From the IMG/VR virus record IMGVR_UViG_3300027976_000187, positions 1 to 26,105 of that record: a stretch of 26,105 bases of DNA, one strand, 5' to 3'. Of the stretch, positions 5,237-10,904 are shown one piece after another (position 1 is the stretch's first letter; every line of letters starts with the position of its first letter). A program made the position numbers and the translations under genes. The notes under the pieces are model-generated. The model made no database searches. It saw only the letters and a program-made list of their open reading frames with translations, and was not told the DNA's origin. This DNA comes from a virus.

Positions 5237-7324
5237 ATGTCAAGCGGATACGACGACGACGAAAAGCCTCGCAGGGGTGTACTCAAAGGCAAGCGGCTGC
5301 GTGAGGTGCACGAGGAGGCGCTGCGCAATTACGACCTCATCTACAGCGCGCTGTACGAGGAACGACAGCAGTGCGTCGCTGACCGCGCGTTCTACCAGTT
5401 GGCCGGCGCCATGTGGACAGGCTCGCTTGGTGAGCAGTTCGACGGCAAGCCGCGCCTCGAGGTCAACAAGGGCAAGCTGGCCGTCAACCGCGTCGTCGCC
5501 GACATGCGCGCCAACGAGATGCGGGTCACCTACCGCAGCAAGGACGGCAAGGCCGCGGACAAAACCGCTGAGACGCTGGCCAGCATTCTTCGTGCCGACG
5601 AGCAGGACAGCAACGCCAGCCTCGTCTACGCCAACGCCTTCAAGGAGGGCGTTGGCGGTGGATTCGGTGCGTTTCGCTTGCGCGCCGTCGACGAAGACGA
5701 GGAGGACGACGAAGACGAGCGGCAGCGCATCCGTATCGAATGGATACCCGACGCTGACACCTCGGTGTGGTTCGACCTCTCGTCTCGTGAGCAAGGCAAG
5801 GCCGACGCGCGCCATTGTTTTGTCGTGACCTCGATGTCGCGCGAGCGCTACGAGGAGATGTACGGCGACAGCGTCTCCAGTTGGACCAAAGCCGACATGC
5901 TGCTTTGGGGCACTGTCGAATGGTGCACGCCCGATCTCGTCTACGTCGCGGAGTACTACCGCGTCGAGGAGGTCCGCGAGAAGGTCACGATCTACCGGAT
6001 GCTCGACCAGACGACCGAGCGCTACACCGACAAAGAGCTCGACGACAATGAAGGGGCCTTGCGCGACGATCTGAAGGTCAGGGGCGCCCAGGCGATGCGC
6101 GAAAAGATGATGATGCGCCGCAAGGTGTGCAAGTACACGTTGTCCGGCGTCGGCGTGCTGCATGAGTGCGTGATCGCGGGCAAACACATTCCCGTCATCC
6201 CGTTCTTCGCCAACTTCGCCGTCATCAACGGCGTCGAGCGATGCAGCGGCATCATCCGCACCCTCGTCGACGCCCAGCGCATCTACAACATGCAGCTGTC
6301 CAAGTTCGCCGAGCTTGCTGGCGTGTCGTCGCAGTCTGTCCCGATCTTCACGTCGGAGCAGGTGTCGGGTCATGAGGCCGTGTGGCGAGATGCGAACCTG
6401 AAAAACTACGCTTTTATGACAGTGAACCCCGTCGTCGGCCCCGACGGTTCGCTGCAGCACATGGGCCCGGTCGGCTACACCAAGCCCCCTGAGCTTGCGC
6501 CTGCGATGGCAGCGCTGGTGCAGATCACGGCGGCAGACATCAAAGAGCTGCTGGGCAATCCGATGGGCAACGACACGGTCGTCAGCAACGTCTCGACCGA
6601 GACGGCGCTACTTGGCCAGCAGCGAACCGATTCGTCGTCGGCGCTCTACATCGAGGATTTCGCGGTGGCGATGAAGCAGATGGGCACCGTCTACCGCGAC
6701 ATGGCCAGGGCGCTCTACATCGAGGACGGCCGCGAGATGAAGACCGTTGGCGAAGACCGCACGACGACCGGCAGCGTGAGGCTGGCCGAGCAATACGTCA
6801 CCGACAACGGGCTGATCGCAGACAACGATCTGTCGCGGGCCAACTTCGACGTGGCTGTCGAGGTCGGCCCGTCGTCGAGCTCAAAGCGAGCCTCAGCGGT
6901 CCGCACGTTGATCGAGGCGGCGAAGGTGACGGTTGACCCGGCCACGCAACTGTTGCTGCTCTCGAAGGCATTGGAGAACGTCGAGGGCGAGGGCATGTCG
7001 GACGTGAATACCTACTTCCGCGCGAAGAACATCAGGCAGGGCATGGGTACGCCGACGCCGGACGAACAGGCCGAGCTTGATGCAGAGGCGCAGGCGCAGA
7101 AGGCCGAAGACCCACAGCAGACCTACCTCAAGGCAGAGGCTGCGAAGTCGTTGGCGCTGGCAGACAAGGCCAAAGCCGACATGATGGGCACCCTCGCCGA
7201 CGTGGAGAAGACGCGCGCAGAGGTCGCTGGCGTCGAGGCCAACACCGAGAAGACGAAGGCGGAGACGCTGGACCTCGTCGGCAAGATCGGGCAACCGCCA
7301 CCGACAAGGCCGTTTCCTCGCTGA
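5237..7324 (+). CDS. portal protein, P22 gp1-like
   Basis: A 695-residue portal, close to the 725 residues of P22 gp1. Twelve copies form the DNA channel at one capsid vertex and dock terminase and then the tail. Seen here: the N-terminal stretch with NEMRVTYRSKDG (93-104), an acidic run DEDEEDDEDE (152-161), the DAQRIYNMQLSKFAEL segment typical of P22-type portals, and the clip/crown region leading to a long helical C-terminus (about 620-690) rich in Ala, Lys and Glu, which matches the barrel of P22 portal. AAGGTGG (5224-5230) lies six bases before the ATG. A strong terminator follows at once. Confidence 0.93.
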   Translation: MSSGYDDDEKPRRGVLKGKRLREVHEEALRNYDLIYSALYEERQQCVADRAFYQLAGAMWTGSLGEQFDGKPRLEVNKGKLAVNRVVADMRANEMRVTYRSKDGKAADKTAETLASILRADEQDSNASLVYANAFKEGVGGGFGAFRLRAVDEDEEDDEDERQRIRIEWIPDADTSVWFDLSSREQGKADARHCFVVTSMSRERYEEMYGDSVSSWTKADMLLWGTVEWCTPDLVYVAEYYRVEEVREKVTIYRMLDQTTERYTDKELDDNEGALRDDLKVRGAQAMREKMMMRRKVCKYTLSGVGVLHECVIAGKHIPVIPFFANFAVINGVERCSGIIRTLVDAQRIYNMQLSKFAELAGVSSQSVPIFTSEQVSGHEAVWRDANLKNYAFMTVNPVVGPDGSLQHMGPVGYTKPPELAPAMAALVQITAADIKELLGNPMGNDTVVSNVSTETALLGQQRTDSSSALYIEDFAVAMKQMGTVYRDMARALYIEDGREMKTVGEDRTTTGSVRLAEQYVTDNGLIADNDLSRANFDVAVEVGPSSSSKRASAVRTLIEAAKVTVDPATQLLLLSKALENVEGEGMSDVNTYFRAKNIRQGMGTPTPDEQAELDAEAQAQKAEDPQQTYLKAEAAKSLALADKAKADMMGTLADVEKTRAEVAGVEANTEKTKAETLDLVGKIGQPPPTRPFPR

Positions 7325-7328
7325 CAGC

Positions 7329-7357
7329 AAAAGGCCCGCCGAGATGGCGGGCCTTTT
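7329..7357. terminator. bidirectional intrinsic terminator
   Basis: AAAAGGCCCGCC (7329-7340) and GGCGGGCCTTTT (7346-7357) form a perfect 12-bp stem around GAGAT. T-runs lie on the 3' side in both directions, so it can end transcripts of the portal (+) and of the reverse cassette (-), whose last stop is at 7363. Confidence 0.92.
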
Positions 7358-7362
7358 CCTTC

Positions 7363-7539
7363 TCACACCTTGGCCAGTGTGACGCCGGTCCTGCTTTCTT
7401 CGGCGTCGAGGCGTTCGCAGACGATGTAGAGGATGGCGCTGGCCATGCTGATGCCGCGGCCCTTGGCGAAGGCGCGCAGCTTCGTCCACGCCTCGCGTGG
7501 CCACGTCTGGCTAAGCCGGTAGGTGTCGGCGCTCGCCAT
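7363..7539 (-). CDS. Arc-like ribbon-helix-helix protein
   Basis: A 58-residue protein that lines up with P22 Arc repressor (53 aa): a short beta strand (TYRLSQT, 6-12), the WPRE motif at 13-16 that Arc also has, helix A (AWTKLRAFAKGRG) and helix B (SMASAILYIVCERLD). Such proteins dimerise through the strand, which also reads the DNA major groove. The start at 7539 overlaps the previous stop as TGATG; an upstream in-frame ATG (7593) would run deep into that gene. Likely target: the inverted repeat at 7899-7931 in front of its own operon; this is inferred. Confidence 0.75.
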   Translation of the reverse strand: MASADTYRLSQTWPREAWTKLRAFAKGRGISMASAILYIVCERLDAEESRTGVTLAKV

Positions 7540-7549
7540 CACACACCGC
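7536..7549 (-). repeat. stop-start junction repeat, copy 2
   Basis: On the - strand this reads GCGGTGTGTGATGG, identical to 7814-7827. It contains the stop of one gene and the start of the next (TGATG). Both upstream peptides end in Gly-Val. Confidence 0.8.
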
Positions 7550-7817
7550 CGATCGCGAGCGCCACCACGAGGAAACCGAAGACGACGACGCACCCGATGA
7601 GGATCATCTGACGGTCCTCCAGAGTCGACACAGTGGCCTCTGACGCCTCAAGCCGACCGATGGCCTTGGTGGCCACGGCATCGGCGTTTTGCAGCGCCTC
7701 AAACAGCTTCTGCGCGGTCTGCGTGCTGGCCGACATGCCCGCGCGTAGGCGCTCAATCTCCCCTTCGAGGATCTTGGCGTGGGCGGGCGACATCGGGACC
7801 TTGATTGCTGCGACCAT
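7539..7817 (-). CDS. tail-anchored coiled-coil membrane protein
   Basis: A 92-residue protein. Residues 10-70 are helical with heptad-like spacing (EGEIERLRAG, then QKLFEALQNADAVATKAIGRLE, EATVSTLEDRQ), and the last 20 (MILIGCVVVFGFLVVALAIG) form one hydrophobic membrane segment at the extreme C-terminus. The layout is that of a tail-anchored inner-membrane protein with a cytoplasmic coiled coil. The start at 7817 overlaps the stop of the 19-aa ORF (TGATG); the longer frame starting at 7925 would cross the inverted repeat and the strong ribosome site at 7881-7886. Possible roles include superinfection exclusion or lysis control; neither is shown by the sequence. Confidence 0.65.
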   Translation of the reverse strand: MVAAIKVPMSPAHAKILEGEIERLRAGMSASTQTAQKLFEALQNADAVATKAIGRLEASEATVSTLEDRQMILIGCVVVFGFLVVALAIGGV

Positions 7818-7827
7818 CACACACCGC
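7814..7827 (-). repeat. stop-start junction repeat, copy 1
   Basis: GCGGTGTGTGATGG on the - strand, the same 14 bases as at 7536-7549. It joins the 19-aa ORF to the membrane protein gene. Confidence 0.8.
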
Positions 7828-7876
7828 ACTTGTTGTCGTACTTGGCCACCGTCGGCTTGTTCGTCTCGTCGGTCAT
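7817..7876 (-). CDS. 19-aa small ORF heading the reverse cassette
   Basis: A 19-residue frame (MTDETNKPTVAKYDNKCGV) with a strong ribosome binding site GAGGTG (7886-7881) four bases from its ATG. Its TGA overlaps the next start as TGATG. It may be a real micropeptide or a leader whose translation sets that of the membrane protein downstream. No family can be recognised at this length; the strong site and coupled junction are the evidence. Confidence 0.5.
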   Translation of the reverse strand: MTDETNKPTVAKYDNKCGV

Positions 7877-7898
7877 CTCTCACCTCAGCGCGCTTGGT

Positions 7899-7931
7899 GC
7901 GCGGTTGCAGCGTATCGCACAGCAACCGCGC
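7899..7931. promoter_or_regulatory. candidate operator: perfect 10-bp inverted repeat
   Basis: GCGCGGTTGC (7899-7908) and GCAACCGCGC (7922-7931) flank 13 bases. On the - strand a weak promoter (TAGACG 7939-7934, 17 bases, GATACG 7916-7911) would place its -10 box between the two arms, so a bound repressor would block it. The Arc-like protein of the same operon is the natural candidate. Confidence 0.5.
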
Positions 7932-7958
7932 GGCGTCTAGACGGTACGTCGCAAATGG

Positions 7959-7987
7959 TTGACGTGGCTTTGCAATGCGGCGAAAAT
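7959..7987 (+). promoter_or_regulatory. promoter for scaffold and coat genes
   Basis: TTGACG (7959-7964) and GAAAAT (7982-7987) are 17 bases apart, matching sigma70 boxes at 5/6 and 4/6. It lies back-to-back with the start of the reverse cassette and 55 bases before the scaffold gene. A promoter is needed here because the terminator at 7329-7357 should stop transcripts coming from the portal. Confidence 0.55.
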
Positions 7988-8041
7988 GCCGTCCACGGTA
8001 CCCCGGCGCACCGAAAGCGACGAGAGAACAAGGGAAATGTG

Positions 8042-8893
8042 ATGCAAACCGAACAGGCAGTAGACGACGACGGCAGCGAGGTCATCAGCGCGACCAACGA
8101 CGAGGCCGATGCGGCAATCGTCGAGGAAAACACTGATGACGAGGTCATCGTCTCGATCGGGGACCCGCCGACCCCAAAAACCGAAGAGCAAGACGACGAC
8201 GAGGCACAGACACCCAAGGCAGCGGCTGCCTGGGCGAAAATGCGCAAGGAAAAGCGCGACGCTGAGCAGAGGCTGGCGCAACTGCAACGACAGATCGACC
8301 AGCAGAAGCCATCACAGGCTGCTCTCGCACTGGCGAAAGAGCCGACGCTTGAGGACGACGACGTCGACTACGACCAGTCGAAGTTTCGCGCGAAAGCAAT
8401 CGCCTGGGCGAAGCAAAAGGCCGAGTTTGACGCCGTCAGCGCGCAAGCGACGAAGGCCGCGACCGACAAGCACGCTCTCTATGTCTCGTCGATCGGCAAG
8501 ATGAAAGTTGGCGGGGAATCTGTCTCGCCAAAAGAGGCCCACGAACTCGTCACAGGTTCGTTTTCGGTGGACCAGCAAAACGCGCTGCTTCAGCACACCG
8601 ATCAGACCCATCTCGTCGTACTCGCTCTCGGCAACAGCCCCAACGAGGTCGCTCGCCTCGCCGGCATCACAGATCCCACGAAGTTCGCCGTCGCCATCGC
8701 GCGGCTTGAGGAGAAGATCAAAGTGACCTCACGCAAGCCGGCGACCTCGCCCGAAAAATCCCCCACCGGTGGCCGCACTGGCGCCATCGCAGACAAAAAA
8801 CTCGACCAGCTTGAGGCTGAAGCCGACCGCAGCGGAGACCGCTCCAAAGTCGTCGATTACAAGCGCAAGCTGCGAGACACCCCCCGAAAGTAG
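8042..8893 (+). CDS. scaffolding protein, P22 gp8-like
   Basis: A 283-residue protein (P22 gp8: 303) between portal and coat. It directs assembly of coat protein into the prohead and leaves before or during DNA entry. Seen: an acidic, flexible N-terminus (1-65), a Lys/Gln-rich helical stretch (65-95), a second acidic patch LEDDDVDYD, a helical middle, and a short basic C-terminus (VVDYKRKLRDTPRK) that resembles the coat-binding end of P22 scaffold. ATG at 8042 has AAGGGA (8030-8035); the frame is open back to 7805 but that part overlaps the promoters and the reverse cassette. Confidence 0.82.
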   Translation: MQTEQAVDDDGSEVISATNDEADAAIVEENTDDEVIVSIGDPPTPKTEEQDDDEAQTPKAAAAWAKMRKEKRDAEQRLAQLQRQIDQQKPSQAALALAKEPTLEDDDVDYDQSKFRAKAIAWAKQKAEFDAVSAQATKAATDKHALYVSSIGKMKVGGESVSPKEAHELVTGSFSVDQQNALLQHTDQTHLVVLALGNSPNEVARLAGITDPTKFAVAIARLEEKIKVTSRKPATSPEKSPTGGRTGAIADKKLDQLEAEADRSGDRSKVVDYKRKLRDTPRK

Positions 8894-8899
8894 GCTCGC

Positions 8900-10180
8900 A
8901 TGTCCAACAGTTTTGCCAAAGAAGAACGCGTCGCGTTCGATGAGATGATGATCGGTTTCGACGACCAGCTGGCCGTCAGCAAACTGGTGCGCAAGTACGT
9001 CTCCGACCAGCAGGCGATGGAGCGCAGCAACAACACGATCTGGCGTCCCGCGCCCTACATCGCCGTGAGCAACAGCGGCAGCGACGCCACTGGCTCGTTC
9101 GACGACTACACCCAGCTCACCGTGCCCGCGAGCATCGACACGCAGCGCTTCGTTGCGTTCCAGATGAACGCGCAAGAACTCCGCGACGCCTTGCAGGAAA
9201 AGCGTCTCGGTACCGCTGCCGTCGCCAAGCTGGCGAGCGACATCAACGTTGCCTGTCTCTCGCGCGCCTCGCTTGAGGGCACCCTGTTTGTAAAGCGCAG
9301 CGGCGCCGCGACCGGTTATGACGACATCGCCGAGGCCGACGCGCTCATGAACGAGCAGGGCGTGAGCAACCTCAACCGCCGTCTCGCGCTGTCGTCCCGC
9401 GACTATAACTCGATGGCCAGCGACCTCTCGAAGGCCTCGCGGTCGTTCGGCAACGAGATTTCCGACGCCGCGCTCCGCCGCGCCTACGTCGGACCCATCG
9501 CCGGCTTTGAAACATACAAGCTCGACTACGCCTTGCGCCAGCTCGCTGCTGCCGGTGGCGGTGCTCTCACCATCAGCACGCTGCCAGGCGGAGCCAACTT
9601 CTACGTCCCCGCTGCGCGTACCGCGCCCGGTGCGCAGGGGCAGACCGCCAACGTCGACAACCGCACACAAGTGGTCACCGTCTCCAGCACCACGAACGTG
9701 CGTTCCGGCGACGCACTCACCATCGTTGGCGTTGAAGCCGCGCACCACATCACCAAGCTGTCGACCGGCCGCCTGAAAACCTTCCGTGTCATCGGCGCGC
9801 CTCTTTCGGGCACCACGCTGCGCATCTCGCCGCCGATCATCAGCGCGCAGGGCGGCAGCGACGCCGAGTTGCAGAACATCAACGTCGTGCTCACCAGCAC
9901 TTCGGGTTCAGCTGCAATCGTGTTCCTCAACACCGTGACCAACACCCTCAACCCCTTCTTTTGTGAGGAGTCGATCGAAATCCTGCCCGGCCGTCTCGCC
10001 GTCCCCACCGACGCGGGCGCTGCGGTCATGTCGGCGACGACGGCCAACGGCATCCAAGTCGCGATGGCCAAGCAGTTCGACATCAAGACCCATAAGACCC
10101 TCTACCGCGTCGACACGCTGTTTGGCACCGTCTGTCTGCAGCCCGAGATGTGCGGCGTGATGATGTTCTCGCAGACCTGA
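8900..10180 (+). CDS. major coat protein, P22 gp5-like
   Basis: A 426-residue protein (P22 gp5: 430) with the HK97 fold expected for this family. Stretches that match P22 coat by eye: AMERSNNTIWRP near residue 40, the LRDALQEKRLGTAAVAKLAS helix near 95-115, FGNEISDAALRRAYVGPIAGFE around 175-200, and NVDNRTQVVTVSSTTNVRSG (about 250-270), close to P22's [20 protein letters not shown] at the end of the insertion domain. It starts six bases after the scaffold stop with only a weak ribosome site, so translation may be coupled. A strong terminator follows. Confidence 0.93.
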   Translation: MSNSFAKEERVAFDEMMIGFDDQLAVSKLVRKYVSDQQAMERSNNTIWRPAPYIAVSNSGSDATGSFDDYTQLTVPASIDTQRFVAFQMNAQELRDALQEKRLGTAAVAKLASDINVACLSRASLEGTLFVKRSGAATGYDDIAEADALMNEQGVSNLNRRLALSSRDYNSMASDLSKASRSFGNEISDAALRRAYVGPIAGFETYKLDYALRQLAAAGGGALTISTLPGGANFYVPAARTAPGAQGQTANVDNRTQVVTVSSTTNVRSGDALTIVGVEAAHHITKLSTGRLKTFRVIGAPLSGTTLRISPPIISAQGGSDAELQNINVVLTSTSGSAAIVFLNTVTNTLNPFFCEESIEILPGRLAVPTDAGAAVMSATTANGIQVAMAKQFDIKTHKTLYRVDTLFGTVCLQPEMCGVMMFSQT

Positions 10181-10860: not shown

Positions 10861-10868
10861 CCCATCAA

Positions 10869-10904
10869 CAAGGCCCGCCGACGTGGCGGGCCTTGTCTCT
10901 TTCT
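10869..10904 (+). terminator. intrinsic terminator
   Basis: CAAGGCCCGCC (10869-10879) and GGCGGGCCTTG (10885-10895) form an 11-bp stem around GACGT, followed by TCTCTTTCTC. Stem and loop pattern are nearly the same as at 7329-7357. Confidence 0.85.

Follow-up and report, generated by a model that had tools for sequence, protein, structure and literature searches.

In phage P22, the ant moron or immI block (sieA, orf59a, mnt / arc, ant) lies between genes 16 and 9, and its Mnt/Arc block stands within the late operon (PMC8022706). Its reverse-strand genes encode the inner-membrane protein SieA and the ribbon-helix-helix (RHH) protein Mnt, Arc is part of the same block, and the promoters together with the Arc and Mnt operators are located in its divergent region (PMC2629481, PMC8022706, PMC10883804). 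Among the P22-like phages then known, morons occurred at one site only in the morphogenetic clusters, and Villafane et al. (2008) asked whether that site alone tolerates insertion (PMC2629481). Short repeated start-site sequences before exchangeable genes are also known from other phages, as PeSLs in T4-type phages, as SAS/ESAS in cluster K mycobacteriophages and as boundary sequences (PMC3203893, PMC4503421, PMC3029335).

Here we analysed a virus record of 26,105 bases (the window, meaning this whole stretch), which derives from a P22-like podovirus. The record has the usual gene order of terminase large subunit, portal (PF16510), scaffold (phrog_648) and coat (PF11651), and its nearest annotated phages are two uncultured Manatee Spring records and Pseudomonas phage PfAn1, with a portal identity of 38-45%. 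Between the portal stop at 7324 and the scaffold start at 8042, three minus-strand ORFs were found, encoding a 58-aa RHH protein, a 92-aa protein and a 19-aa peptide. We consider it most likely, with a probability of roughly 0.6, that they form a leftward cargo cassette of the moron type, with an insertion point downstream of the portal stop and ahead of the scaffold leader, in which the RHH protein would repress its own expression and the 92-aa membrane protein would be the effector.

Like immI, the cassette lies in the late operon and encodes a putative inner-membrane protein and an RHH protein on the reverse strand. In contrast to immI, it is located at the portal-scaffold junction instead of between gene 16 and the tailspike gene, its Arc-like gene is itself on the reverse strand and last in the operon, and its length is 0.7 kb, compared with about 2.9 kb. 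The three short ORFs are its whole content: the antirepressor gene ant is absent, as are homologues of sar and sieA. The original prediction had placed P22 Arc at a different location; the junction is indeed a different one, but in P22, too, the late operon contains the Mnt/Arc block (PMC8022706), which makes the parallel closer than had been thought.

Insertions at the portal-scaffold junction

The portal-scaffold junction is an insertion hot spot in P22-like contigs. For the survey, portal- and coat-bearing loci were taken from IMG/VR, from genomes in GTDB and from phage records. As loci were selected by similarity and some contigs are related to each other, the percentages are rough and the contigs are not independent. 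The portal-scaffold gap was shorter than 200 bp in 106 of 134 contigs (79%), in agreement with the expectation that the two genes are normally adjacent in P22-like phages, and the relatives thus do not all share the arrangement of the window. In the four annotated phages inspected first, the gap was at most 77 bp, and in P22 it was 13 bp. The other 28 contigs (21%) had a gap of at least 200 bp, with 0.3-4 kb of varied cargo, whereas gaps of this size were found at 2 of 84 terL-portal junctions (2%) and 7 of 147 scaffold-coat junctions (5%); the pooled contrast of the portal-scaffold junction with the other two gave a Fisher p of 8e-7 on contigs that are not independent. Carriers of portal-scaffold cargo include L131, L140, L144, L153, L169 and L171, among others.

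Among the inserts listed, most genes point rightward. Reverse cargo was found in two lineages: the window with its near relative L003, and a group consisting of L034, L036, L039, L152 and L199 (the L034 lineage), which is unrelated to the window's lineage and has no homologue of the cassette RHH. A reverse cassette at this junction, as originally described, is therefore present but not unique, since a second lineage carries other reverse genes there.

Organization of the reverse cassette

The coordinates of the cassette and its surroundings are given in Table 1. At each ORF junction of the cassette, the stop and start codons overlap as TGATG, by which the RHH and membrane protein genes are translationally coupled. 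The exact motif GGTGTGTGATG occurs only twice in the window, both times at an internal start of the cassette, and in L003 it is found at the RHH gene and at the first gene.

Table 1. Features of the cassette and the flanking genes in the window
Feature	Position	Strand	Details
Portal gene, P22-like, left flank	5237..7324	+	PF16510, E 4.5e-127
Bidirectional intrinsic terminator closing the cassette	7329..7357		AAAAGGCCCGCC-GAGAT-GGCGGGCCTTTT; identical in L003
Arc-like RHH protein, 58 aa (52 aa in L003)	7363..7539	-	Pfam Arc E 0.005; P22 Arc best sequence and fold; dN/dS 0.19
Junction motif at RHH gene start, TGATG coupling	7537..7547	-	GGTGTGTGATG
Coiled-coil protein, 92 aa, C-terminal membrane anchor	7539..7817	-	helix 11-90; hydropathy; dN/dS 0.35
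Junction motif at membrane gene start	7815..7825	-	GGTGTGTGATG
19-aa ORF	7817..7876	-	slot holds an unrelated 85-aa gene in L003
Weak leftward promoter candidate	7911..7939	-	TAGACG-17-GATACG, TG preceding -10; 7/12 matches
10-base palindrome, candidate RHH operator	7934..7943		CGTCTAGACG; conserved in L003
Inverted repeat around -35 of rightward site	7951..7973		GCAAA...TTTGC; same element in L034 lineage
Rightward promoter-like site before scaffold	7959..7987	+	TTGACG-17-GAAAAT; identical in L003
Scaffold leader, family pseudoknot position, degenerate in the window	7994..8024	+	CGGT/ACCG kept, second stem weak
Scaffolding protein gene, P22-type, right flank	8042..8893	+	phrog_648, E 1.5e-31
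Coat protein gene	8900..10180	+	PF11651, E 3.7e-83

One near relative with the cassette was found in IMG/VR, namely L003 (IMGVR_UViG_3300001097_000359), which keeps the terminator, the RHH gene and the membrane protein gene and differs in the first gene, of 85 aa and unrelated to the 19-aa ORF. The synonymous divergence between the window and L003 is about 0.28 in the portal, RHH and membrane protein genes and 0.09 in scaffold and coat; this drop (Fisher p 2e-11) therefore marks a mosaic joint at the cassette start, where the first gene was exchanged. The slot upstream of the membrane protein gene is thus swapped between close relatives, and the 19-aa ORF is not a stable component of it.

Both the RHH and the membrane protein genes are under purifying selection relative to L003. 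Because dN/dS is low in the minus frame (Table 1), while in the frames offset from it dN exceeds dS and the plus-strand frames are interrupted by stops, these two ORFs are real genes; of the three reverse genes that had been predicted, it is the 19-aa ORF that is not conserved in L003. The GC3 values of 0.88 (RHH) and 0.82 (membrane protein), against 0.84 for portal, correspond to the codon bias of phage genes, and the composition is not foreign in L003 either, where the GC content is 0.63 for both the insert and the locus. A 1-base indel upstream of 8042 between the window and L003 supports 8042 as the scaffold start and the region preceding it as non-coding.

Proteins encoded by the cassette

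The RHH protein scored 17.1 bits against Pfam Arc (PF03869), under the curated cut-off of 20.4. Its best solved sequence is P22 Arc (E 0.07-0.10), with which it has a WPRE motif in common, and in a Foldseek search the top 12 rows were all Arc (identity up to 39%, E 0.5-1.1). In VIA-align, however, MazE, MatP and CopG rows tied with Arc, and Arc is therefore not singled out by fold alone. As in P22 Arc, there is one RHH domain only, about 53 aa long, and the WPRE motif follows the strand; the nearest fold is Arc. The protein is thus best described as Arc-like, as first proposed and in line with its nearest solved sequence and fold, yet by the Pfam cut-off it would not count as a member of the Arc family. 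Arc-family proteins bind their operators as tetramers; the strand residues with which Arc contacts DNA differ in the cassette RHH.

The 92-aa protein is predicted to form one long helix (residues 11-90), with a fold that is a plain helix, and has a C-terminal hydrophobic stretch of 20 residues (19-mer hydropathy 3.09 at residue 71), in keeping with the tail-anchored membrane protein originally predicted. We suggest that it is the effector of the cassette, probably acting at the host inner membrane. Family searches with this protein gave no match better than chance, and in profile searches of Pfam, PHROG and NCBIfam the cassette matched structural or lysis families no better than chance. No homologue of the RHH or the membrane protein was detectable in IMG/VR outside L003, where a profile scan with the RHHs of both the window and L003 returned the known relative only. 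Phage records contained no homologue of either protein, and plasmids none of the RHH; nor was an RHH homologue found in 300 genomes from the bacterial order that includes a portal-bearing Pseudorhodoferax genome, in a search that had no positive control.

The size and anchor of the 92-aa protein would also fit a holin or holin regulator, to which a weak PHROG holin match (E 0.076) could point. This E-value is at chance level, the cassette is oriented opposite to the late genes, and the lysis genes of P22 are elsewhere, in a region whose counterpart lies outside the fragment; we regard a lysis function as very improbable. Somewhat less remote, but still improbable, is a toxin-antitoxin pair in which the small membrane protein would be the toxin and the RHH protein its antitoxin and autorepressor. 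The two genes are small and coupled, as such a pair would be, and the fold matches of the RHH protein include antitoxin domains (MazE types, TacA, HicB), but the protein (52-58 aa; 52 in L003) ends soon after its second helix and has no toxin-binding tail, the effector gene is 5' of the RHH gene, and the membrane protein, with its long coiled coil, does not resemble known small membrane toxins. Searches of the cassette with NCBIfam and PADLOC gave chance-level matches only, with no match to a toxin-antitoxin family. Neither of these functions is as probable as that of a self-regulated moron-type cassette.

Terminator, promoter-like sites and candidate operators

As had been predicted, the cassette is closed by a strong bidirectional terminator, the hairpin of which folds much better than shuffled sequences on both the plus strand (z -5.2) and the minus strand (z -5.0). 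A near copy that reads rightward is located at 10868-10897, 3' of the coat gene. Terminators are therefore tolerated in the late operon of the window's phage, which would imply antitermination or several promoters.

The divergent promoters of the original prediction were recovered in part. The rightward site, 55 bp upstream of the scaffold ATG, is the sole consensus promoter match within 6900-8500, and its counterpart in L034, L036 and L152 is TTGAAA-16-GATAAT. The leftward candidate, in contrast, is poor, and its -10 is not kept in L003; its -35 is overlapped by the palindrome CGTCTAGACG. The tetranucleotide CTAG is rare in the window, with 3 copies in 26 kb (7937, 11285 and 13346), one of them within the cassette's divergent region.

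We propose that a leftward transcript would start in the divergent region, run against the late operon and end at the bidirectional terminator. The leftward promoter is most likely repressed by the cassette's Arc-like RHH protein, which may bind at CGTCTAGACG. Scaffold and coat would most likely be transcribed by antiterminated read-through and/or from the promoter-like site before scaffold. The RHH protein might, in addition, repress that rightward site and so act as a switch that sets the timing of scaffold and coat synthesis or dampens it: in the divergent region, a stretch of about 55 bp holds both the site at 7959-7987 and the palindrome at 7934-7943, and both are identical in L003. We think this unlikely, as the inverted repeat around the -35 is also present in the L034 lineage, 91 bp before scaffold, where there is no RHH homologue.

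The window and the L034 lineage have in common the element GCAAATrGTTGA...TTTGCA...GAwAAT, in both cases 91 bp before the scaffold ATG. In 2000 shuffled pairs, a local alignment score as high as this one arose 36 times, with the equal position left uncounted. In IMG/VR, matches to the pattern of the element were confined to the window and L034 lineages and two unrelated places. The GCAAA/TTTGC repeat was considered as the RHH operator and rejected on account of its presence in the L034 lineage without an RHH homologue, and it is probably no operator of the cassette RHH. A leader model of the common element also matched the short portal-scaffold gap of insert-free phages (best E 3e-5); the leader therefore belongs to the backbone, and cargo enters between it and the portal stop.

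Reverse arrays of the L034 lineage

Members of the L034 lineage carry two to five reverse genes each, which differ between members; the arrays are at L034:8257-9004, L036:5149-5824 and L152:5229-5960, and L199 also has one. In front of most of these genes is the linker AACCAGCAAGGAG, in many cases together with a short hairpin, and such start-site repeats with hairpins recall the repeated-linker systems of other phages. Unlike PeSLs and SAS/ESAS, the repeats here lie among reverse genes at the portal-scaffold junction, and the window has two copies of GGTGTGTGATG only. On the scaffold side, the lineage has a leader of about 184 bp that is conserved at 98% between L034 and L036 and at about 86% in L152. 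A palindrome in this leader differs on both arms between L034 (GTTACTGGTAAC, within 8985-9166) and L152 (CTTACTGGTAAG, within 5940-6125), changing as an operator would.

G006, a 34-kb record of this lineage, has small reverse genes at about 18.8-21.4 kb that share the strand of the pre-scaffold array, and near copies of the AACCAGCAAGGAG linker occur in this run. Such a likeness would be expected if the reverse genes were a displaced block of early genes, transcribed ahead of the late genes by a phage with a leftward early strand. The window's record and 11 related records of up to 40 kb, all of which may be incomplete, yielded no integrase, in keeping with early genes as well; early expression is therefore no less probable than prophage expression, and lysogenic expression of the cassette is not supported. 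We nevertheless regard a displaced early block as rather unlikely, given that the small genes upstream of terminase are rightward in the window, where the phage's early region lies outside the fragment. A moron-type cassette remains our preferred reading.

A pseudoknot in the scaffold leader

The aligned scaffold leaders have the form S1-nnCC-S2-S1'-loop-S2'-GAG, an H-type pseudoknot that is present in most relatives. Copies are located at L086:9062-9097, L034:9111-9146, L110:6055-6088 and L143:5871-5904, with about 60 more. Covariation was assessed in 64 distinct leaders, which had been picked by their GAG ending, irrespective of pairing. Of the cells, 85.7% were paired, and changes on both sides were found in 123 cells compared with 35 in shuffles. 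The covariation score of 0.538 exceeded both the shuffled controls (0.200, sd 0.015) and the slid ones (no more than 0.12). Each of the two helices, taken alone, was above its controls. An Rfam search with leaders from nine sources gave no match, for one leader even at E up to 1. With a covariance model built from these leaders and run over 24 sources, strong matches were obtained only before scaffold, the rest being at chance level.

The model did not find the leader of the window at E up to 10, nor did it find those of P22 and its enteric relatives. The leaders of Sf6, HK620 and APSE-1 have a similar layout by eye and by a pairing search, the score of which alone is not above background, while the P22 leader has only CGGC/GCCG with GTGT/ACAC, in a register that is not clearly the same. 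The P22 scaffold is reported to limit its own synthesis post-transcriptionally. We hypothesize that the leader pseudoknot is the RNA target of a P22-type self-regulation of scaffold.

Discussion

The moron is an already known kind of element; what is new here is its site, the reverse-strand Arc-like gene and the gene-swapping slot. The original prediction of a moron carrying its own regulator agrees with these data, as most relatives have no insert, the cassette has its own terminator and an Arc-like gene, and the cargo of related phages at this point differs. More tentatively, we suggest as a possibility rather than a probability that P22-like phages have a second site for morons at the portal-scaffold junction, where cargo would land between the portal stop and an autonomous pseudoknot leader controlling scaffold synthesis, with the pseudoknot as the target of scaffold self-regulation, so that head assembly would stay regulated whatever is inserted.

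For environmental relatives of P22, our survey answers the question raised by Villafane et al.: the portal-scaffold junction is another, much-used site, and it has twice received reverse-strand sets of genes. The effect of a reverse cassette with an Arc-like repressor on the supply of capsid-gene products can now be tested, and the leader pseudoknot offers a concrete RNA candidate for the control of scaffold synthesis.
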